From Stomatobaculum sp. F0698 (lineage in GTDB: Bacteria; Bacillota; Clostridia; Lachnospirales; Lachnospiraceae), in contig NZ_CP130060.1 of the NCBI RefSeq assembly GCF_030644385.1, forward strand, positions 2,087,432 to 2,151,431: DNA of 64,000 bases, in the 5' to 3' direction. A program made the position numbers and the translations under genes. The notes under the pieces were generated by a model. That model was not told the DNA's origin. It saw only the letters and a list, made by a program, of their open reading frames with translations, and ran no database searches. This document shows, piece by piece, positions 1 through 9,236 of this stretch (position 1 is its first letter; every line of letters starts with the position of its first letter).

Positions 1-30
1 AATCTTTGCTAACTTTTAGAGAGCAAATAA

Positions 31-63
31 GCAGAACTATGGTAGTATTATACCAAGTTCTGC
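31..63. repeat. Imperfect 33-bp dyad at the window start
   Basis: GCAGAACT at 31-38 pairs with AGTTCTGC at 56-63, and GGTA (41-44) pairs with TACC (51-54), leaving a 6-nt loop. The dyad contains a perfect TATAAT on the minus strand (49-54), so it could be an operator over a promoter reading out of the window to the left. No good -35 element accompanies it. It could equally be the stem of an upstream transcript. The role is unassigned. Confidence 0.35.
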
Positions 64-76
64 TGTACATGCTGAA

Positions 77-108
77 CGGCGGAATTGGAAAAATTCCGCC
101 GTTTTTTT
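77..108 (+). terminator. Rho-independent terminator
   Basis: A perfect 10-bp stem (CGGCGGAATT at 77-86 with AATTCCGCCG at 92-101) has a GGAAA loop and is followed by seven T residues. It closes a transcription unit that lies left of the window and insulates the surface-protein/sigma operon that follows. Confidence 0.9.
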
Positions 109-120
109 GTAAAAAAAATC

Positions 121-145
121 GAACCTTTTACTGCAAAAACCCGTC
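121..145 (+). promoter_or_regulatory. Candidate ECF sigma-factor promoter
   Basis: GAACC (121-125) is separated by 16 nt from CGTC (142-145). This spacing and these elements match the general ECF promoter pattern (a -35 containing GAAC or AAC and a -10 containing CGT). It lies about 60 nt upstream of an operon that encodes an ECF sigma factor, as expected for autoregulation. No good sigma-A hexamers were seen in this gap. This is pattern matching only. Confidence 0.5.
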
Positions 146-204
146 CTTATATAGGTGGAGTGACTTACGCTGAGGTGGCAACATACTTGGGGAGGGAACG
201 TGAC

Positions 205-2652
205 ATGACGACAGCAAAGGCAGATGCAAGCAGACGGTCTTCTCACATTGTAGTTCTGATTATAATGCTATGGCAGTGCATGCTTTGCTGCGGCACGGTG
301 TTGGCGGTCGATACCGTGTCAAACTTTAGCGTGGAACACATTCAAGCGGCTGGCGTATCGGATCGGGCGTTTGCGGAAGCGATTTTTGAGAGTATTTCGG
401 CTCATATCGAGGACGGCAGCTATACGGTAGCACCCGAAGAGAGCACGGAGAAAATTTTGCTGGAATACGGAACGACCACGGAGAATGCCGAAATTCGAGC
501 AAACGGGAGGAATATTCGAGAGATTGCAGGGATTCATCTGCTTCGGAATGCGACCTATATCGATCTTTCGGATAATCTGATTTCGGACTTGAGCCCTCTG
601 GCAGCGGATCCGGGAATCGTAGAACATTTAACGTATTTCGGGGCACGCGAATTGGACCTGCGCGGTAATCCCATCGCGCGTGTGCCGGAGAAACTGCGCG
701 GATTTGAAAACGGTCACTATCGTCTGGACAGCACCTTGATTCTCCCGCTTCCGTTTTACGACAGAAACGGAACAGTTGAGAGACGAATCGTTCTGCACAG
801 CACAGAGCAAGGGGAAAAGGCGGTCGTCGTTCGAACTTGCGGCGAGGCCGAGATTCTGCAAAGTGTGGAAAATGCATTTCAGCAGTCTTTGACTGCGGTG
901 ACAAGTTATCGGAGCAGTGCGACGGAGGAAGAGTCAATCGGTCTTCGCTGGTCGCTTCCGTTTGACTGTCGGCATGTGAGAGCGTTTCGGGATGAGTTAA
1001 GGCTTGAGACTGTGGGAGATGTGGAATTAATCGCGGTGACAACGGAGGGTGAACCGCTCTCCGGTATATGCTATCGTCTGATCTCTGAAAGCGGCAATTC
1101 GAATATGCGGATGCCGGAGCATACGGAGTTCTGTACCGATGCGGATGGCAAGTTGCTGATTTCAAACCTGCCGAGCGGAAGCTACCGGCTTGAGCAGCAG
1201 AATTTCCCGCCGGACTGTCACAGCTTACAGGATACGCTCCGTTTTATGGTAGCGGATGCCTCCGTATCGGCGCTTTCACTGAGCGGCCGCGATACGACAT
1301 CGGATCGTTTCGATGAGATCGGGCACAGCGAAGAAGTATGGCAGCTATATTTCTCGGCAAGCGGTCCCTTCCTCGGAATAGAATCGGAAGCCGTAAATTC
1401 CCATATGCGGAATGCGAATTTAGGTATTGCGCATGGATTCATAGCGGACGGCGATGAACTCGAGCAGTTAAAAGGGGAGATTTTGGAGCACGAAGGCTAT
1501 GTCCTGCTGCCGGAGAGCCGTGTACTGCTTTACGAAGATGAACGCTTATTGGCTGTCTACAGCAGTCCCGTTGAGGCGAGGCAGGCGCTCAATCGACGTC
1601 TGCGGGAAGGAAATCCGCAAGACGGCAGCCGGCGTATTCTTGTGACGGAGGAACTCTCTTGTCGGGAACGGACACAGCGCTTACGCGCGGTTTTTGTAAA
1701 ACAGACGGGGAGGAGCATAGAGCGCATCGTCGTAAAAAAGAGTTGGGGGGCGGACAGAACAGAGGAAGAAGCTTATTTTCGTCCGCTGCTCTTGCGTGAC
1801 GGAGAAGTGCTTGCGGTGCTCGGAGAAATCAAGGCAGTGAATACAAGCAACCATTGGGAGGCTGTCTGGGATTTTGAGGCAAGTTCTTCCGATGCGAGGA
1901 GAAGCCGAAGCGGCCGGGCAAGCGCAAGCAACGCCGAAGAGGCGGAGCTGTTTCGAGAAGATGCTCTCCTATTCTCCGGTGTCTTGCCGTATGGCTGCGT
2001 AATCGGCGTTGAGGAAATGAATATTCCGTTCGGTTGGATTCCGCAATATGAAGCGGTCCGCTACCAAGGAAGCGAGGCAGTGTTTCTGGTCTGCAATCAA
2101 CCGGAGCTTCCGTGGAAGGCCGAAACTGTCATGCTGACGCGGAGCATCACTCCGCCGATCGTCGGGAGGGAAATGAGGAAAGCCCGAAGGCGGCAGCCCG
2201 AGAGGCGCGAAAAAATACGGGAGAACGCAGCGGAGCGATTCCATATCGAAGCGGCGCGGCATGAGCCGGAAACGCGGGAAATGCATGTCGGAACGGATGG
2301 GACAAGAAGCGATGTAAGCTATGAGATAGAGGAAAACAGCGAGAAGCGGATGCTGCGCGAAAGGAAAAGGACAAAGCAGCAAGCGAGGACACCGCTTCCG
2401 CGGGCTAGGTTAGAGCATTGTAAAGTACACAGAGGACGCCCGGTGCATTCGTACCTTCGCGGAAAGAGGCTGCAAAGCGGGAAAGGTGCGAAAACAAAGC
2501 GCGTCGGGCAGAAGTTACCGCAAACGGGGGAAAGACGACAGGGCATTTGCCCGGATGAAACACTGCTTTTGGGTCTGTTGATGTCGCTGTTGCTATTGCA
2601 GTCGGTTTTGAAGCAGTGTTTGCATACAAACAGGGGGACTGACAGATGCTGA
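205..2652 (+). CDS. LPXTG-anchored surface protein with LRR and prealbumin-like (Cna-B) domains
   Basis: The start at 205 is chosen because GGGAGGGAACGTGAC precedes it and a signal peptide follows at once (about residues 1-34, hydrophobic core IVVLIIMLW). The protein is 815 residues. A short leucine-rich stretch at about 95-163 contains YIDLSDN and ELDLRGNP. A Cna-B/SpaA-like segment at about 270-345 has the TDADGK...GSYRLEQ pattern. A very basic Arg/Lys-rich region (about 655-765) leads to the sortase signal LPQTG (771-775), a hydrophobic stretch and a charged tail. It is therefore probably covalently attached to peptidoglycan. The next gene, an ECF sigma factor, overlaps its end by 7 nt, implying translational coupling and a shared role in envelope sensing. 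Ligand and exact function are unknown. Confidence 0.8.
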   Translation: MTTAKADASRRSSHIVVLIIMLWQCMLCCGTVLAVDTVSNFSVEHIQAAGVSDRAFAEAIFESISAHIEDGSYTVAPEESTEKILLEYGTTTENAEIRANGRNIREIAGIHLLRNATYIDLSDNLISDLSPLAADPGIVEHLTYFGARELDLRGNPIARVPEKLRGFENGHYRLDSTLILPLPFYDRNGTVERRIVLHSTEQGEKAVVVRTCGEAEILQSVENAFQQSLTAVTSYRSSATEEESIGLRWSLPFDCRHVRAFRDELRLETVGDVELIAVTTEGEPLSGICYRLISESGNSNMRMPEHTEFCTDADGKLLISNLPSGSYRLEQQNFPPDCHSLQDTLRFMVADASVSALSLSGRDTTSDRFDEIGHSEEVWQLYFSASGPFLGIESEAVNSHMRNANLGIAHGFIADGDELEQLKGEILEHEGYVLLPESRVLLYEDERLLAVYSSPVEARQALNRRLREGNPQDGSRRILVTEELSCRERTQRLRAVFVKQTGRSIERIVVKKSWGADRTEEEAYFRPLLLRDGEVLAVLGEIKAVNTSNHWEAVWDFEASSSDARRSRSGRASASNAEEAELFREDALLFSGVLPYGCVIGVEEMNIPFGWIPQYEAVRYQGSEAVFLVCNQPELPWKAETVMLTRSITPPIVGREMRKARRRQPERREKIRENAAERFHIEAARHEPETREMHVGTDGTRSDVSYEIEENSEKRMLRERKRTKQQARTPLPRARLEHCKVHRGRPVHSYLRGKRLQSGKGAKTKRVGQKLPQTGERRQGICPDETLLLGLLMSLLLLQSVLKQCLHTNRGTDRC

Positions 2653-3923
2653 GTTTACGGGAACAAAGGGTTGTGGAATTGGTCAGAGAATACCAGAAAG
2701 GCGATGTAAAGGCCTTTGACGGAATTTATTCCCTCTGCTATCAGCCGATTTATTATCTGATTTACAAGATGGTACGTGACAAGCATGAGGCAGAGGATCT
2801 CACACAGGAAGTGTTTTTACAAATATTCCATCGCATCGAAGATTTAACGGATCCGAAGAGTTTTAAGTGTTGGTCCAATCGGATTGCCTATCACAGCACT
2901 CTGGACTATATCACTTCCGTTCGTTATACAAGCACCAAGGGAGTTCCGCTGGAGGAAATGCTGGAATCGGAGCTGAGGGCGGATGTAATGTCGGACGGAG
3001 GGCTGTCCATTGAGCAGTTGGAACAGCGACATACCATTATGACGGCGGCGGATCAGTTATCCTGGCCTTTGCGAGCCACGCTCTTGCTCAAGTTCTTTTC
3101 GGAACTTAGGGAAAGAGATATCGCGGAAATTATGGATGTACCGATCGGAACGGTGAAAAGTCGGCTCTCCGAAGCAAAGAAAAAGATGAAGAAGTTGATC
3201 GGAAATAAACTCTTTTGCTTCAGTCCCTTCAGCTTTTATACCTTCTTTCTTCATTTGGAGTATCTGCAAACGGGCGGTCGGGCTGCCATGGCCTCTTCCG
3301 CTGTTTTCGGCAAAGCCGCGGCGGCAGTTCTCCTGTCTACGGGACTGGTCGGCAGCGTTGCGCTGCGTGGTGTCCGTATTTCTGCGGTGCAATATCGGGA
3401 TCCCGGCTGCTATGTCAATGAACAGCTGCTGCGCTTTCAAGTGACAAGCGGAGCACCGATTAAAAAGATAAGCCTGTCCGGAGAGAAAGAAATTCCCTTG
3501 CTCCGGAACGGAAAAGCGTATGAAGCAATCGTCGAAAAAAACGGAGTTTATACGATAGAGGCAATCGATATCGCAAATCATAGAGCCAAAAAGACCATTC
3601 GAATTTCAAACATAGATAGCGAAGCGCCGGTATACCTCGGATATCAAGAGCAGGGGGATTGGATGCACTTGCGCTTTTCCGATGAGGCGGCACAAATAGA
3701 CTGGGATACATTGTGTTGTGAACACGAGGAACAGACGGTAGAGAGTTTTTCGATTGACAGAGAAAACGGTGTTTTGCGGATACCGCAGGAACTGTTTCCG
3801 CTTCGGATTAAGATTCGAGACAGAGCGGGAAATCAGGCGGTCTATCTGTTTCGGAAGGGGGAGACGGCGAAACTTGAGCCGGAGACGACGGAGACGGAAG
3901 AAATCGCAGGCGAGACATACTGA
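2646..3923 (+). CDS. ECF sigma factor fused to a transmembrane segment and an extracytoplasmic domain
   Basis: Residues 1-185 form a sigma-70 family ECF factor: region 2 lies at about 20-90 (AEDLTQEVFLQIF is the typical -10 recognition helix area) and region 4 at about 135-182 with the helix-turn-helix IAEIMDVPIGTVKSRL. Ordinary ECF factors end here at about 180-200 residues, but this one has 425. A hydrophobic segment at about 218-240 (AAAAVLLSTGLVGSVAL) is followed by about 185 residues that look beta-rich and Ig-like (SDEAAQIDW, IRDRAGNQAV) and end in a Thr/Glu-rich tail. The predicted topology puts the sigma domains inside and the C-terminus outside, so the sigma factor would be tethered to the membrane. 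No separate anti-sigma gene is visible nearby. The gene overlaps the upstream wall-protein gene by 7 nt. Confidence 0.85.
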   Translation: MLSLREQRVVELVREYQKGDVKAFDGIYSLCYQPIYYLIYKMVRDKHEAEDLTQEVFLQIFHRIEDLTDPKSFKCWSNRIAYHSTLDYITSVRYTSTKGVPLEEMLESELRADVMSDGGLSIEQLEQRHTIMTAADQLSWPLRATLLLKFFSELRERDIAEIMDVPIGTVKSRLSEAKKKMKKLIGNKLFCFSPFSFYTFFLHLEYLQTGGRAAMASSAVFGKAAAAVLLSTGLVGSVALRGVRISAVQYRDPGCYVNEQLLRFQVTSGAPIKKISLSGEKEIPLLRNGKAYEAIVEKNGVYTIEAIDIANHRAKKTIRISNIDSEAPVYLGYQEQGDWMHLRFSDEAAQIDWDTLCCEHEEQTVESFSIDRENGVLRIPQELFPLRIKIRDRAGNQAVYLFRKGETAKLEPETTETEEIAGETY

Positions 3924-3952
3924 GCAAAGGATATTCATCTGAGGAGGACAAC

Positions 3953-4798
3953 ATGCGTCGACTTGCGGATAGAAGCTTGCATCTTGGAATCAGACTTTGT
4001 GTGTTCCTTGCACTCATCTTGTTCGGGGTTATGCTTTCCCTGCGAGAGGCAGAGGCGGGAACAGAACTGCGGATTTCTCCGGAGTTTTTTGTGGATGAGA
4101 CATCCGGTATTTTATTCCTCTGCGAACTGGAAAATGAGAGTGAACAGGAAATTCCGGAAGTACATCTTTCTCTTCGCTTGCCGGAGGGAAGTGCGGGTCA
4201 GGTATACCGCTTCTCGAATGCGGAATTCCTGCGAGAAGGAACGGAGGCCGTACCGTATGATGCCCTTTCTCATGGGGAGTCGCTGCAAATTTTTGTCCCT
4301 TCGCTAAAACCGGGAGAACAGTGTCTGTTGCAGGCAGAGGGAACGGTGGCATCCGCGGAAATGAGCGATGGCAGGCGAACGGAACTCGAAGTGGATGTGA
4401 GCCTGCGGCGTGGGGAGGAAGAACATAGGACAAGGAAGCGCTACGATCTTTCCGGACAAACGAAAGCGCTGTCGGCAGTCGGTGTCAGCTTGCACGGAGA
4501 ACGAGTCGGGACCGCAAGGATGCGGGATGTAAATCGACAGGCGGAATTGAAGAGACCGGAACTACCGGCAGGGCAGCTCGAACTTGATATTGCAAAGGAA
4601 GCTCCGCCGGCAAAGAGGCGAGGCCCGGCGAGCGGCCTTCCGGTCGCGGAGATTCTGGTCTGCAGTATGGCCCTCTGGATGCTGAGCATACTGCTAAAGC
4701 AGCTGGCCGTCTATTTTGAAGAGGGAAAGCGAAAGTTCGATCCGAAGCGGAAGCGCTCTCCGCGGAAGGACGCAGATGAGGATGAGAAAAGAGACTAA
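3953..4798 (+). CDS. Membrane-anchored surface protein of the sigma operon
   Basis: The protein is 281 residues, with GAGGAGG eight bases before the ATG. A signal peptide or N-terminal anchor is seen at about residues 10-33 (CVFLALILFGVMLSL). A beta-rich ectodomain resembles the Ig-like folds often found in bacterial surface proteins (LCELENESEQEIPEVHLSLRLPEG). A C-terminal transmembrane helix at about 226-248 precedes a strongly basic cytoplasmic tail. It has no sortase signal. It follows the tethered sigma gene by 29 nt and is the last gene before a terminator, so it is probably part of the same sensing unit, for example as an interaction partner of the outside domain of the sigma protein. 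No family was recognised. Confidence 0.7.
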   Translation: MRRLADRSLHLGIRLCVFLALILFGVMLSLREAEAGTELRISPEFFVDETSGILFLCELENESEQEIPEVHLSLRLPEGSAGQVYRFSNAEFLREGTEAVPYDALSHGESLQIFVPSLKPGEQCLLQAEGTVASAEMSDGRRTELEVDVSLRRGEEEHRTRKRYDLSGQTKALSAVGVSLHGERVGTARMRDVNRQAELKRPELPAGQLELDIAKEAPPAKRRGPASGLPVAEILVCSMALWMLSILLKQLAVYFEEGKRKFDPKRKRSPRKDADEDEKRD

Positions 4799-4829
4799 AG
4801 TGTTTTCGGTATAGGTAAATCATGGAATC

Positions 4830-4865
4830 AAAAAGGCAGCAAGCCCAAGGGATTGCTGCCTTTTT
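4830..4865. terminator. Bidirectional terminator
   Basis: A perfect 13-bp stem, AAAAAGGCAGCAA (4830-4842) with TTGCTGCCTTTTT (4853-4865), has a 10-nt loop. The A tract on one side and T tract on the other let it stop transcription from both directions, between the convergent surface-protein and yhaN-like genes. Confidence 0.9.
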
Positions 4866-4886
4866 AGTGCACAGAAGCGATGCGCC

Positions 4887-6737
4887 TCAAAGTTCCACGA
4901 GATGGAACGGGAGCATGGAGGCCGTGAGGAGCTGTGCCTCGCGAAGATGCGGAGTAAAGAGTAAAATCTGGCGGGGCGTATAACTCTCCGACAGCCAGTG
5001 AAGAACGGTGCGAAGCCGCTGTTCGTCATAGTTGGCAAAGCTGTCGTCCAGTAGGAGCGGCAGTGAGCTGTTGCCGAATTGCAACAAATCCGCGGCGGCG
5101 AGGCGCAGTGCAAAATACACCTGGTCCACGGTGCCGGCACCTGCCTGCTCAATCGGAATCAGCTTTCGCGAGGTGTTCAAAAAGATATTCAGATTCTGAT
5201 CGACCGAAAGGGAATCATAGACATTTCCGGTGATACCGGAGATGAGCTGTGAAGCGGACTGATTCAGGTAGCGGCCGAAGGAATCATGAATGGTCTCCGA
5301 GAGTCTGGCCAGCGTTTCCGTTGCGATGTTGATGGCCTCTATCTCGGTATTCAGGCGGTCGTTTTCGGCAACCACATTTTTCAAGGCGGCAGTCTCGTCT
5401 TTCAGAGCGGAGAGTTGCTGTAACTGCTGTTCCAGCAACCACTGACTCTTCTGCTGGTTTGCCAGGGATTGTTCGGTTTCCGCCTGCTGTGTCTTTAAGA
5501 GGCGCAGTTTCTCTTCAATATCGTAGACGGCGGACTCACAGCGCAAAATTTCATCCTGCAGAACCAGCAGTTCGGCCGTCTTGTCCTTGGCGCTCTCGGC
5601 GAGCGCATGCGGACGTTTTCTGAGTTCACTCTCCAGCAGAAGTTCGGGGAAATGTGCCCGAACAAGTTGTTGGATGTTGCGGGTCGATTTTCGCCTTCTC
5701 CGTCCCGCGAGCAAGACCGAGAAGATTAAACAGATTCCCAAGGCAACACAGCAGACAGCCGTGACGCAGAGCAGAGCCTGGAGTTTATTGGCACTGTCCG
5801 GAACCACACGCAACATCGTAAAATAGAGTAAGAGTGCCAGCGGAAACAAAAGAAAGGCGGCAATGCTCCGGGCCCGCAGTTGTGCCCGAGAGCGCAAGGC
5901 TTTGCGTTCGTTCTGCTGCTCGGAAAGTTGAGTCTGAAAGCGAAGCAGGGACTGTCGGTTTTGAAAACCGCGCTCTTCCATGGTCTGGCGCTTGGCGGCC
6001 AAGCTTTTTACAAGCTTTTCCTTTTCGCTCTGCAGGGTTTCCTGAACACTCTGACTGTCCTGCTTGGAAGCGCTCAGACTTTGCATGGTATTCCGGTAGC
6101 CGGGAACGGAAATCTGCTCCTCCAGTCTGCGAATTTCAGAGATATTTGCCGCATAGTGCTTGGCGGCATCCGGCACAATGCGCTGTTCAAAGGCTTTGCG
6201 CTGATCGCGAAGATAGGCGGTCGCACGGTCAATGTTCAGCGTATGTTCGCCGGTCGCATTCATGTTGGCAATGTAGTTCTTCAATTCCTGCGTCATGCCG
6301 GAATCGGTCGCGCTCCTCAGCTGCCGTATGCTGACCGTGTTCATATAGGCGGTTTGACTCAGGCCGCAGAGACAGCCGCGAAGAAAGGTCTCCGGATCTT
6401 CGATCGCAAGCCCGGCACTCTCATCGATGATGGTGAGGTCCAGCGGATTCTTTCGAAAATCACGTTCGATGCGGTACAACTTCCCATCCTCTTCGAAGCG
6501 CAGGCTTCCGCCGTAGGCGCCCTCCCCGAACCAGGGTTCATAGAGTGCATAGGCGTCCGTTTTCGAGGCACGGCCGCGCGCGCGCTCCAAACCGTAGAAC
6601 ATGGCGCGGAGAAAAAGGTGGAGCGTTGACTTTCCGGCCTCGTTTGCACCGTAGAGGATATTCAGGCGGTCGCCGAAAACAAAGCGTCGATTCTGCAGGG
6701 CACCGAATCCGCGGATATTGAGCTCACGGATAATCAT
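4887..6737 (-). CDS. yhaN: YhaN-like SMC/Rad50-type AAA ATPase
   Basis: The protein is 616 residues. The N-terminal half-site has Walker A GANEAGKST at about 30-38, and the C-terminal half-site has the LLLDDSF Walker B region. Between them are coiled coils rich in Gln/Glu/Leu. Two hydrophobic helices in the middle (about 292-312 and 320-341), flanked by Arg/Lys clusters, are a hallmark of the YhaN type and suggest membrane association at the apex of the coils. Its start shares one base with the stop of the upstream phosphoesterase (TAATG), the same pairing as yhaO-yhaN in bacilli and analogous to sbcD-sbcC. It probably powers DNA-end processing together with that nuclease; the substrate is unknown. 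Confidence 0.8.
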   Translation of the reverse strand: MIIRELNIRGFGALQNRRFVFGDRLNILYGANEAGKSTLHLFLRAMFYGLERARGRASKTDAYALYEPWFGEGAYGGSLRFEEDGKLYRIERDFRKNPLDLTIIDESAGLAIEDPETFLRGCLCGLSQTAYMNTVSIRQLRSATDSGMTQELKNYIANMNATGEHTLNIDRATAYLRDQRKAFEQRIVPDAAKHYAANISEIRRLEEQISVPGYRNTMQSLSASKQDSQSVQETLQSEKEKLVKSLAAKRQTMEERGFQNRQSLLRFQTQLSEQQNERKALRSRAQLRARSIAAFLLFPLALLLYFTMLRVVPDSANKLQALLCVTAVCCVALGICLIFSVLLAGRRRRKSTRNIQQLVRAHFPELLLESELRKRPHALAESAKDKTAELLVLQDEILRCESAVYDIEEKLRLLKTQQAETEQSLANQQKSQWLLEQQLQQLSALKDETAALKNVVAENDRLNTEIEAINIATETLARLSETIHDSFGRYLNQSASQLISGITGNVYDSLSVDQNLNIFLNTSRKLIPIEQAGAGTVDQVYFALRLAAADLLQFGNSSLPLLLDDSFANYDEQRLRTVLHWLSESYTPRQILLFTPHLREAQLLTASMLPFHLVEL

Positions 6738-7813
6738 TACTTTTGCCCCCTTTCCTCTGTCGTGTGGAGCAGCGCGCTCACACCGTAATAGAGTGCTTTT
6801 TTATCGAGCGGGCTCAGATTCGGCTTATCCAGTTCCCGGATGAAGAAACCTATCATATCGGAGGAATGCTCCGCAAACAGACGCGAAAAATCATACTTGG
6901 GTTCGGAATAGTCAAAGAGCTCTGCGATGCGGAAGCGCTGACGTAGGGCATCCAAATCAAAGACCACATCCGGATCCCGGAGTCCTTTGATTTGCAGGCG
7001 ATAAATATTTTGATTGCCGCGTCTTGCGAGCTCATCGCTCAGGGTCATCAGCAACTCCGCATTGGTAGAGTCCGGTGTGACGTGGACGATGAGGGAGGTG
7101 TACTGTGTTTTTGCAAGTCGCACAAAATCAAGTGAGGTGACCTGGCGGGTAATATCATTGATTTCGCCGAGGAAGTAGCCGTGCGGTCCTGTCTCCGTTA
7201 GGTCGAGCGGTTCGGGGGAACCGCACCAGGCGACTTTGCCGGGAACCGCAATCTCGGGTTTATGGATGTGTCCGAGCGCGCAATAGGAAAAGCCGGATTC
7301 CGAGAGCTCTTTGACATCGAGCGGCAGGTGTTTGGCATCTCCGCCGTGGCAGAGCAGAATGCGAATGCGCCCGTTTTCCGGGGCTTCCACACCCTCGAGG
7401 AGATTGTCTCGAATTTCCCGTGTGTGGTAGGAAAAGCCGTAGACTTCCGTGTTCAGGCGGCGGAGGTAGACCGAGCTCAAGGCCGACTCGGTGAAATAGT
7501 AGACATTTTTCGGCCAGGGAAACGAGAGCACCGCGGAGTTATCGCGAATGCGATCGTGATTGCCGGCGATGACGGCGACCGCCACATCCGGAATCGAGGC
7601 GAACAAGTAGCTGATTTCTTTGAGATCGCGCACAAGCGGCTGATGATGGAAGAGATCTCCCGCAATCAGGAGGAGATCCGCTTTTTCATCGCGCGCAGCC
7701 CGAACAATCGAAGCAAGCGCATCTTTGACAGCCTGCGCTCGCTCCGTGCTCCAAGGTTTTCCGATGTCCGGCTTCATGCCGTAATGGAGATCGCCTGTGT
7801 GGATAAACTTCAT
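6737..7813 (-). CDS. yhaO: YhaO-like DNA-repair metallophosphoesterase (Mre11/SbcD family)
   Basis: The protein is 358 residues and starts after AAGGAG. Metal-binding motifs run in the expected order: GDLHYG at about 7-12, AGDLFHH at about 50-56, GNHDR at about 83-87, CHGGD near 157, and GHIHKPE at about 180-186. These are the five calcineurin-like phosphoesterase motifs that bind two metal ions in Mre11-type nucleases. The C-terminal third is the less conserved capping region. The partner ATPase follows immediately with a one-base overlap, so the two products probably form a nuclease-ATPase complex. The window also carries canonical sbcDC at 38.2-42.1 kb, so this pair is a second, distinct system. 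Confidence 0.8.
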   Translation of the reverse strand: MKFIHTGDLHYGMKPDIGKPWSTERAQAVKDALASIVRAARDEKADLLLIAGDLFHHQPLVRDLKEISYLFASIPDVAVAVIAGNHDRIRDNSAVLSFPWPKNVYYFTESALSSVYLRRLNTEVYGFSYHTREIRDNLLEGVEAPENGRIRILLCHGGDAKHLPLDVKELSESGFSYCALGHIHKPEIAVPGKVAWCGSPEPLDLTETGPHGYFLGEINDITRQVTSLDFVRLAKTQYTSLIVHVTPDSTNAELLMTLSDELARRGNQNIYRLQIKGLRDPDVVFDLDALRQRFRIAELFDYSEPKYDFSRLFAEHSSDMIGFFIRELDKPNLSPLDKKALYYGVSALLHTTEERGQK

Positions 7814-7844
7814 GACCTAGCTCCTTGTTGAAAAAAGCCTATGC

Positions 7845-9236
7845 TTACAGCTCGCAGTTTCCGACGGTGCGCGGGAAGGGCAGCACGTCACGGATGTTCT
7901 GAATGCCGGTCAGATACATGACGCAGCGCTCAAAGCCGAGACCGTAGCCCGCATGGCGGCTGCTGCCGTACTTGCGGAGGTCCAGATAGAAGCGGTAAGC
8001 TTCCTCATCCATGTTGAGTTCTTTCATGCGCGTGAGCAACTTCTCGTAGTCGTCCTCACGCTGGCTGCCGCCGATAATTTCGCCGATGCCCGGGACGAGG
8101 CAGTCCATCGCTGCGACTGTCTTGCCGTCGGGATTTAACTTCATATAGAAGGCTTTGATGTCCTTCGGGTAATCGGTGACGAAGAGCGGGCGCTTGAAAA
8201 CCTGCTCGGTCAGGAAACGCTCGTGCTCGGTCTGAAGATCCGTACCCCAGGACACCTTGTAGTCAAAGTTGTCGTTGTTCTTCATCAGAATCTCGACCGC
8301 CTCCGTGTAGCTGATGTGACCGAATTCGGAATTCAGCACGTGGTTCAGGCGCTCAAGAAGGCCGGTGTCGACAAAGCGGTTCAAGAATGCCATCTCTTCC
8401 GGTGCATGCTCCAAGACATAGCGGATGATGTACTTCAGCATATCCTCTGCGAGTGCCATTGCATCGTTCAAATCCGCAAAGGAAATTTCCGGCTCTATCA
8501 TCCAGAACTCGGCCGCGTGGCGGGTGGTGTTGGAGTTCTCGGCGCGGAAGGTCGGCCCGAAGGTATAAATATCACGGAAGGCCTGGGCAAAGGCTTCCCC
8601 GTTCAGCTGGCCGCTGACCGTGAGATTGGTCTCCTTGCCGAAGAAATCCTCGCGGTAGTCGACCAGGCCATCCGGGGTGCGCGGAATCTCATTCGGGTCC
8701 AGCGTGGTCACGCGGAACATTTCGCCCGCGCCTTCCGCATCACTCGAAGTGATGAGCGGCGTGTGGACATAGACAAAGTTTCTCTCCTGGAAGAAACTGT
8801 GGATGGCAAAAGCGATGACCGAGCGCACGCGGAACGCCGCCTGGAACAGATTCGTGCGGGGGCGCAGGTGCAAAATGGTGCGCAAAAATTCCGGCGAGTG
8901 GCGCTTCTTCTGAAGCGGATAATCCGGTGCGGAGTCGCCTTCCACCGAGATTTCCGTCGCCTGAATTTCGAAGGGCTGCTTTGCGTCCGGCGTCGCGACA
9001 AGGGTGCCGCGGATGATGAGCGCCGCACCGACATTGATTTTTCGAATCACCTGAAAGTTGGAGAGACTGTCGTGATAGACAATCTGCAGGGGCTCAAAAA
9101 AGCTGCCGTCGCTGACGGTCAAAAAGCCGAAGGACTTTGAGTCGCGATTCGAACGCACCCAGCCGCCCAAATCGATTTCCCGATTCAAATACGCCTCTCG
9201 ATTTTCCCATATTTGTTTGACTGTTGTGAGCTTCAT
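7845..9236 (-). CDS. asnS: Asparagine--tRNA ligase
   Basis: The enzyme charges tRNA-Asn with asparagine in the cytoplasm. The start at 9236 is preceded by GAGAGGAG and gives a 463-residue protein of the usual family length; an upstream in-frame start would add 16 unrelated residues. The N-terminal OB fold contains [12 protein letters not shown] (about 21-32). The class II motifs follow: motif 2 with [11 protein letters not shown], and motif 3 with [15 protein letters not shown] near the C-terminus. Residues typical of AsnRS rather than AspRS, such as the SNT after FRAEN, support the assignment. The gene stands alone, 30 nt downstream of nothing on its own strand and just before yhaO. No T-box leader was found upstream. 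Confidence 0.95.

Follow-up and report, generated by a model that had tools for sequence, protein, structure and literature searches.

The last 64 kb of the single-contig, 2.15-Mb genome of Stomatobaculum sp. F0698 (this whole stretch is the window analysed here, and the genome is labelled G000) contain near their start a cassette of three genes, the second of which encodes an extracytoplasmic function (ECF) sigma factor that appears to carry its own membrane segment and outside domain. The three open reading frames (ORFs), which we call genes A, B and C, all lie on the forward strand, at 205–2652, 2646–3923 and 3953–4798, and the first two overlap by 7 nt. The intrinsic terminator of the preceding gene, which itself lies outside the window, forms a hairpin with a 13-bp stem and T run at 74–104 (+; −20.3 kcal/mol, z −4.9), and a second terminator closes the cassette at 4830–4865 (+; −22.1 kcal/mol, z −5.0). 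No RNA family was matched in an Rfam scan of window positions 1–8000.

The product of gene B (425 aa) was examined by Pfam, alignment, hydropathy, AlphaFold modelling and Foldseek. Sigma region 2 (residues 28–91; Sigma70_r2, PF04542, E 1e-11) and region 4 (residues 130–181; Sigma70_r4_2, PF08281, E 4.6e-11) are encoded at 2727–3188 (+), and regions 1 and 3 have no match at E up to 10, which is the domain content of an ECF sigma factor. Among the NCBIfam matches listed (25 of 85 families) all are to sigma factors, and Foldseek matches the modelled sigma part to SigW (5wuq, E 8e-8) and RpoE. Region 4 is followed by the segment KLFCFSPFSF (residues 188–197; 3207–3236, +), by a probable transmembrane (TM) helix (residues 225–243; 3318–3374, +) and by a putative ectodomain of two immunoglobulin (Ig)-like beta-sandwich domains (residues 244–405; 3375–3860, +), to which AlphaFold, Foldseek matches to tandem Ig folds and profile homology all point. 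A hydropathy peak after region 4 (Kyte-Doolittle mean over 19 residues, peak threshold 1.2) is present in all five gene B homologues at moderate height (1.42–1.82), with two further peaks at 1.2 in one of them (L033), and the two predicted domains keep invariant residues in all five cassettes. Gene B thus fits an ECF sigma factor with a fused membrane extension of about 240 aa. By sequence, this extension has no zinc-finger anti-sigma domain of the ECF52 or ECF53 type; with E values of up to 10 admitted, Pfam matches nothing in gene B other than the sigma regions.

Comparable extensions are found elsewhere in the Lachnospiraceae. Ten of 18 ECF frames in 18 loci from other genera (L014–L031) are extended, with a hydrophobic, TM-like stretch in the added part (L014, L015, L016, L018, L019, L020, L024, L025, L027 and L028), and they resemble gene B in the order of sigma regions 2 and 4, motif, linker, TM segment and large C-terminal part. 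All ten show KL(Y/H/F)(S/G/A), hydrophobic residues and a proline directly after region 4 (by eye; seven of ten by pattern), a KLYSxAPF-type motif that neither the seven short ECFs nor the single extended frame without a TM segment contains and that the gene B segment resembles. Perhaps these ten belong to a larger class of tethered sigma factors. Distant gene B homologues (L032, L033, L034) carry G(M/V/F)YS followed by proline at this place, without KL. Our guess is that the KLFCFSPF segment of gene B helps to hold the sigma domain.

Gene A encodes a secreted LPXTG surface protein of 815 aa, as judged from its ORF, Pfam, alignment, hydropathy and a structural model. Its ATG at 205 is preceded by GGAGGG; a longer frame starting at TTG 85 is unlikely, because it would run through the promoter described below. 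The protein combines a signal segment, leucine-rich repeats (LRRs), a SpaA prealbumin-like domain (residues 273–352; 1021–1260, +; PF17802, E 3.9e-6, above the Pfam cut-off), an LPQTG sorting motif (2515–2529, +; read from sequence and alignment) and a hydrophobic segment, as expected of a sortase-anchored LRR/SpaA surface protein. Among the homologues of gene A the sorting motif is [LI]PxTG in four of five cassettes and VPEMG in the fifth (L032). The LRR portion, an N-terminal cap and short internalin-like stretch at residues about 41–160 (325–684, +), is weak in Pfam (LRR_4, E 0.12, under the cut-off) and is supported by the model, in which residues 41–130 form a helical cap and a short LRR with strands 22 residues apart; the predicted local distance difference test score (pLDDT) of this block is 78–92. 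The whole model has a pLDDT of only 51, and the N-terminal part alone was used. Foldseek matches gene A to internalin chains (E 1.4e-3 to 7.6e-3) and to pilin/Cna-B chains (E 6.6e-5 to 5e-3). Despite the LPXTG motif, the sole match to a Pfam sortase model in G000 (C1:1898943–1899224) fits class B best; it reaches E 5e-40 with TIGR03064, just short of the cut-off, and stays below both curated cut-offs.

Gene C, described from its ORF, alignment and hydropathy, is predicted to be a single-pass surface protein with a hydrophobic N-terminal signal segment, an ectodomain, a hydrophobic C-terminal TM segment and a basic cytoplasmic tail (3953–4798, +). Neither it, in Pfam and NCBIfam, nor its homologue in L032 matches any family, and a role as a classical anti-sigma factor was set aside on that ground. 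Among the neighbours of the sigma gene in five cassettes, read by eye, no adjoining gene has an anti-sigma family match. A first-pass annotation, made from the letters of the sequence, had described this locus as three adjoining or overlapping genes between terminators, encoding a wall-anchored protein with LRR and prealbumin-like domains, an ECF sigma factor with its own membrane helix and outside domain, and a further single-pass surface protein, with no anti-sigma gene beside them; this description holds, with the LRR coming from the model rather than from Pfam.

To place the cassette within its genus, we used seven genomes, G000 to G006, with G004 (140 contigs, 6% contamination) and G005 (82% complete) as draft assemblies. 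Gene B has matches at E 0.001 or better in six of them, and the matches in G005 are to unrelated ECF and Ig sequences only. The order A-B-C is kept in five of seven (G000, G001, G002, G003 and G006, the window's own genome counted), so that the case against it named in the first-pass annotation, a sigma gene always lacking its surface-protein neighbours, does not arise. Neither G004, where the sigma-profile search gave weak matches only, nor G005 has a detectable cassette; an ECF in G005 with a separate 327-aa neighbour (L035) was judged by eye to be a different system. Identities of the four other cassettes to that of the window are 60, 39, 38 and 27% for the sigma factor, 43, 28, 25 and 24% for gene A and 38, 22, 25 and 24% for gene C. 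The closest named relative found, with 60% in the sigma factor, is Lachnospiraceae bacterium ACC2 (G002, L003). The cassette is retained even where the sigma factor has diverged to 27% identity and gene C to 22%, which speaks for the model of gene B set out below.

The surroundings of the cassette, named by eye, are conserved as well. All five have the same gene for a small membrane protein on the upstream side, what we take to be a ParB-like gene lies nearby in four (the stretch available for L032 begins too late to tell), and genes presumably related to SbcC and SbcD lie downstream in four. In L032 a two-component pair (552–2568) separates the upstream membrane protein gene from the cassette, and in both L032 (2812–3252) and L033 (10312–10749) the operon begins with one more gene, of 145–146 aa.

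The cassette is preceded by a predicted ECF-type promoter, GAACC-N16-CGTC, at 121–145 (+), so that transcription should begin near 150 and leave a leader of about 50 nt. GAACC-N16/17-CGTC stands before the first cassette gene in all five cassettes, and in the 64-kb window the site at 121–145 has the top score with a position weight matrix (PWM) that includes it among its training sites; we predict that this promoter is autoregulatory. Under stricter patterns, the same motif lies upstream of a CpaF/TadA-like ATPase gene (cpaF) in six of the seven genus genomes (G000 1983159, G001 C14, G002 C5, G003 C10, G006 C23 and G004 C66). The cpaF gene itself is present in all seven, and that of G005 is without the promoter site. 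To judge these sites we used a hold-out PWM for which the five cassette promoters were the whole training set, with no cpaF site among them. The six cpaF sites score 19.5–28.6 with this matrix, and across the 255,866 combinations of position, strand and spacing in the window the cassette promoter alone scores as high (28.6, or 17.4 in the other spacing); no other position exceeds 13.8. A second, paralogous cpaF in G003 has no site (PWM 4.6).

In a mismatch search with GAACCTTTT-N12-CGTCCTTA (17 fixed bases, up to three mismatches, spacing 16 only), G000 and G002 have two sites each at zero or one mismatch, and these are the cassette and the cpaF promoters. The remaining sites (five in G000 and three in G002) have two or three mismatches, giving totals of 7 and 5 against 13 and 13 in the controls. 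Some further matches in the genus were recorded and not used. They precede a gene weakly resembling domain II of pyruvate:ferredoxin oxidoreductase in G001, G003 and G006 (L099, L098 and L112; E 5e-4 to 0.04, below the cut-off) and a gene for a small DUF4064/DUF4870-like membrane protein in G001 and G003 (L091 and L094; below the cut-off). G006 also has two near-identical TGAACC-(A/G)AATTC...CGTC sites (L102 and L105), one before a 144-aa gene and the other without a same-strand gene directly downstream.

The genes of the G000 cpaF locus fit a Tad (type IVc) pilus locus, which is marked by a TadA/CpaF ATPase, TadB/C, a prepilin peptidase and TadE-like proteins. Specifically, they match T2SSE, T2SSF (one clear, and one TadC-like at E 0.012, below the cut-off), DUF5702, DUF6382, a TadE-like family (E 3e-4, just under the cut-off) and prepilin peptidase, and the best NCBIfam match of the cpaF product is the TadA family TIGR03819 (E 3e-85, below its cut-off). 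No small Flp pilin gene was identified in this locus. The operon had been called self-contained in the first-pass annotation, and this part of the description does not stand: because the same promoter also precedes the distant Tad locus in six of seven genus genomes, the operon appears to form the sensory end of a pilus regulon.

A second line of evidence comes from relatives of the gene B ectodomain in other genera. A profile of the C-terminal half of gene B matches 82 of 397 genomes of the family, with many of the weaker matches in much longer frames, and a protein search with the same half gave 17 matches, all of them also found by the full-length search. We took 18 loci from outside the genus, the 17 best-scoring and one (G219) picked for its adjoining sigma factor. 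The Ig protein adjoins a sigma sequence in nine of these loci, from nine genomes and eight genera (L159, L161, L166, L167, L170, L171, L173, L174 and L175). All nine carry genes for PilC, PilT and a transglutaminase lipoprotein, and eight carry a GGDEF gene; the other nine Ig loci have neither sigma nor pil genes within the 7–14 kb around. Sigma factor and Ig protein are separate genes in eight of the nine, seven of these eight having the GGDEF gene. The ninth, L173, has a 335-aa frame (6076–7077) in which a sigma2-like start is fused to the partner; truncated, without a recognisable sigma4 and beside other pil genes, it may have arisen by a fusion of its own or be what is left of a decaying sigma factor.

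The separate partner has a cytoplasmic N-terminus of its own, a hydrophobic segment and an ectodomain (read by eye), a layout from which we consider it most likely an anti-sigma factor. Its ectodomain is homologous to that of gene B (hhalign probability 97.9, E 4e-13), and therefore gene B looks, by sequence, like a sigma factor fused to its membrane partner, of which it would have kept the TM segment and the ectodomain. Other relatives of the ectodomain occur without a sigma factor: orphan proteins with a TM segment, Ig-like domains and a low-complexity tail lie at G000:C1:1962123–1962563 (L002 1096–2451), L036 4613–5983 and L042 3664–4923. At L176 (5952–6689) an Ig partner-like protein has no adjacent sigma gene, an ECF match lying about 15 kb away, and it adjoins genes that by eye resemble a TasA/camelysin-type protein and a signal peptidase.

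Most of the two-gene pilus loci also have a neighbouring surface protein. A giant reading frame of at least 800–1700 aa, open at the end of the stretch, diverges from the operon in seven of the nine pilus loci, and among the eight two-gene loci all but L159 show it. Two of these proteins were scanned: that of L171 has Big_2 and Listeria-Bacteroides repeats and that of L175 an InlB-type repeat. A promoter-like site lies about 108–156 nt before the start of the giant frame in all seven (shuffle p 0 to 0.015), and this parallels the cassette, in which the LRR/SpaA protein is the one that follows the promoter. Because the PWM for other genera was built from the cassette and cpaF sites, the shuffles preserve base composition only and several −10 elements differ from CGTC, we count these sites as supporting evidence. 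The two-gene system is like the cassette in its ectodomain, its related sigma factor and, in the seven loci that show a neighbouring surface protein, a similar promoter before it; it differs in having two genes rather than one, a PilC/PilT operon in cis rather than a distant Tad locus, and, in the two proteins scanned, Big_2/InlB repeats rather than LRR/SpaA.

These results suggest that gene B is probably a one-component, membrane-tethered ECF sigma factor that couples surface proteins to pilus expression. That it activates both the cassette operon and the Tad locus we regard as highly probable; that the tether keeps the sigma domain inactive until a signal arrives is plausible, on a narrower balance. 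The promoters and the homology behind this model are well supported; the course proposed for the signal and its release is inferred. The N-terminal half of gene B would be an ordinary sigma2-sigma4 pair on the cytoplasmic side, and the C-terminal half a helix and Ig-like sensor corresponding to the separate membrane partner of related genera. At rest, the tether and the KLFCFSPF segment beside sigma4 would hold the sigma domain off RNA polymerase. The outside Ig domains may sense a change, most likely (this is a guess) in the proteins A and C made from the same operon, whereupon the sigma domain could be freed by a change of conformation or, as IutY is, by proteolysis. The freed factor would then transcribe from GAACC-N16/17-CGTC promoters, yielding more adhesin and more sensor from its own operon and expression of the cpaF-led Tad locus.

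Several observations weigh against this reading. Although the helix is conserved as a hydropathy peak, it is rich in Ala and Gly, only moderately hydrophobic and not resolved by AlphaFold, which has no confidence there, and gene B shows no recognisable counterpart of the cytoplasmic N-terminus that the separate partners have. The sample of 18 loci from other genera is not blind: a higher-ranked match, G137, was passed over, and G219 was chosen for its adjoining sigma gene. Sites facing the pil operon reach p 0.01 or less in two of nine loci (L175 and L167), leaving seven of nine pil operons without one, and most −10 elements in other genera deviate from CGTC. Within the genus, G005 has no cassette and no good cpaF site (its best scores 12.5, as high as six combinations in the window), and G004 has the cpaF promoter, yet no cassette was detected in its 140 contigs. 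A further G000 match, at 962087 and with a spacing of 17, falls within a coding region. In its loose form, GAACC-N16/17-CGTC, the pattern is not in excess in G000 (43 sites against 40 in the control, with positions given for 10 of the 43); it stands at 38 against 38 in G001 and 38 against 28 in G002, and a large regulon in these three genomes was dropped with the pattern near the control level. In G003 (64 against 45) and G006 (62 against 23, with no site positions given) the loose pattern exceeds its control; this excess was pursued through the stricter patterns only, and the regulon may therefore be larger there.

Part of this evidence is what would be expected if another ECF sigma factor, for instance that at 393414 in G000, read the promoters in a general envelope-stress response, with gene B as one target and its tether incidental. 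GAAC/CGTC is a common ECF promoter shape. Counted with one Pfam model, Sigma70_r4_2 above its cut-off, G000 has the cassette sigma, the ECF-like region-4 match at 393414, which could read these promoters, and a 94-aa frame, and G002 has several matches; the cpaF site of G004 and the loose-site excess in G003 and G006 point the same way. However, G003 has the cassette sigma as its only match above that cut-off, G006 has it with a borderline 119-aa frame, and both genomes keep both promoter sites. The persistence of the motif where the cassette sigma is the sole clear ECF by this model supports gene B as the reader, short of proof, and two strong 16-spaced sites in each of G000 and G002 are few for a stress regulon. 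We therefore consider control by another ECF unlikely.

The location of the inhibitor raises a different question. Gene C, with its basic cytoplasmic tail, or an unlinked protein might act as the anti-sigma factor proper, in which case the Ig domains of gene B would serve only to place the sigma domain at the membrane. Gene C does follow gene B in five of five cassettes, and an anti-sigma gene is commonly found close to its sigma gene (PMC8103513). But gene C has no family match, its conservation is low (22–38%) and its tail is short, and homology to the membrane partner found with the pilus-operon sigma factors lies in the gene B ectodomain rather than in gene C; we think this arrangement improbable. 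Alternatively, gene B could always be active at the membrane, with control by transcription only and a structural ectodomain. The predicted autoregulation would permit this, and gene B shows no recognisable anti-sigma domain. Against it stand the conserved two-domain ectodomain with its invariant residues in all five cassettes and the precedent of IutY, a characterised membrane-fused sigma factor that is activated by proteolysis (PMC8999054), and we rate constant activity as slightly more doubtful still. That the cpaF match is a coincidence and the cassette has no other target is suggested by the chance level of the loose motif in G000, but is very improbable given a site at the same place in six of seven genomes that the hold-out PWM ranks above all other window positions.

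A tethered sigma factor of this kind has partial precedents. The sigma part of gene B matches the fold of SigW, and the SigW/RsiW and RpoE/RseA pairs are controlled by regulated proteolysis, although there the anti-sigma factor is a separate protein. To our knowledge, the Pseudomonas aeruginosa ECF sigma factor SigX has no tether. It influences the Flp/tad genes (PMC3832394), but expression of PprB, the regulator of these tad genes, changed as well, and SigX may therefore act on them indirectly. Known ECF sigma factors with fused membrane regulatory domains (PMC8999054) include IutY (ECF243), for which release by regulated proteolysis is reported as shown, SCO4117 and its relatives (ECF48/52/53), and ECF36. 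Like gene B, these carry their transmembrane regulatory part on the same polypeptide as the sigma factor. By the descriptions given there, the ECF48/52/53 extensions have a zinc-finger domain, SCO4117 has a proline-rich region and a carbohydrate-binding domain, and the ECF36 extensions are N-terminal. The extension of gene B is C-terminal and has no recognisable anti-sigma domain, but the KLFCFSPF segment and two Ig-like ectodomains. Thus the statement of the first-pass annotation that no characterised system has this composition is right for the exact combination within the literature searched, and too broad for membrane-fused sigma factors as such. In the titles and opening abstracts covered, mostly open-access, we found no tethered ECF sigma factor controlling Tad or type IV pili in the Lachnospiraceae, and no described sigma factor that has Ig-like ectodomains, shares an operon with an LRR/SpaA adhesin and has a Tad pilus as its target; in this respect the system appears to be new.

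How commensal Gram-positive bacteria control the building of adhesive pili is little known. If the proposed reading is correct, a small and discrete system of one protein and two promoters joins wall-anchored adhesins to Tad pilus expression, and the signal sensed by the membrane-tethered sigma factor, together with its release, becomes testable. The two-gene relatives in other Lachnospiraceae would carry the idea over to type IV pili. More tentatively, and with the odds somewhat against it, the loci may represent a contact circuit found across the family, in which an Ig membrane sensor, separate from the ECF sigma factor or fused to it, reads the state of a large surface adhesin and switches on the adhesin and a pilus of the type IV family, of the PilC/PilT type in the other genera studied and of the Tad type in Stomatobaculum, which would have the fused, one-polypeptide form. 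The promoter motif could then be used to trace pilus control across the family.

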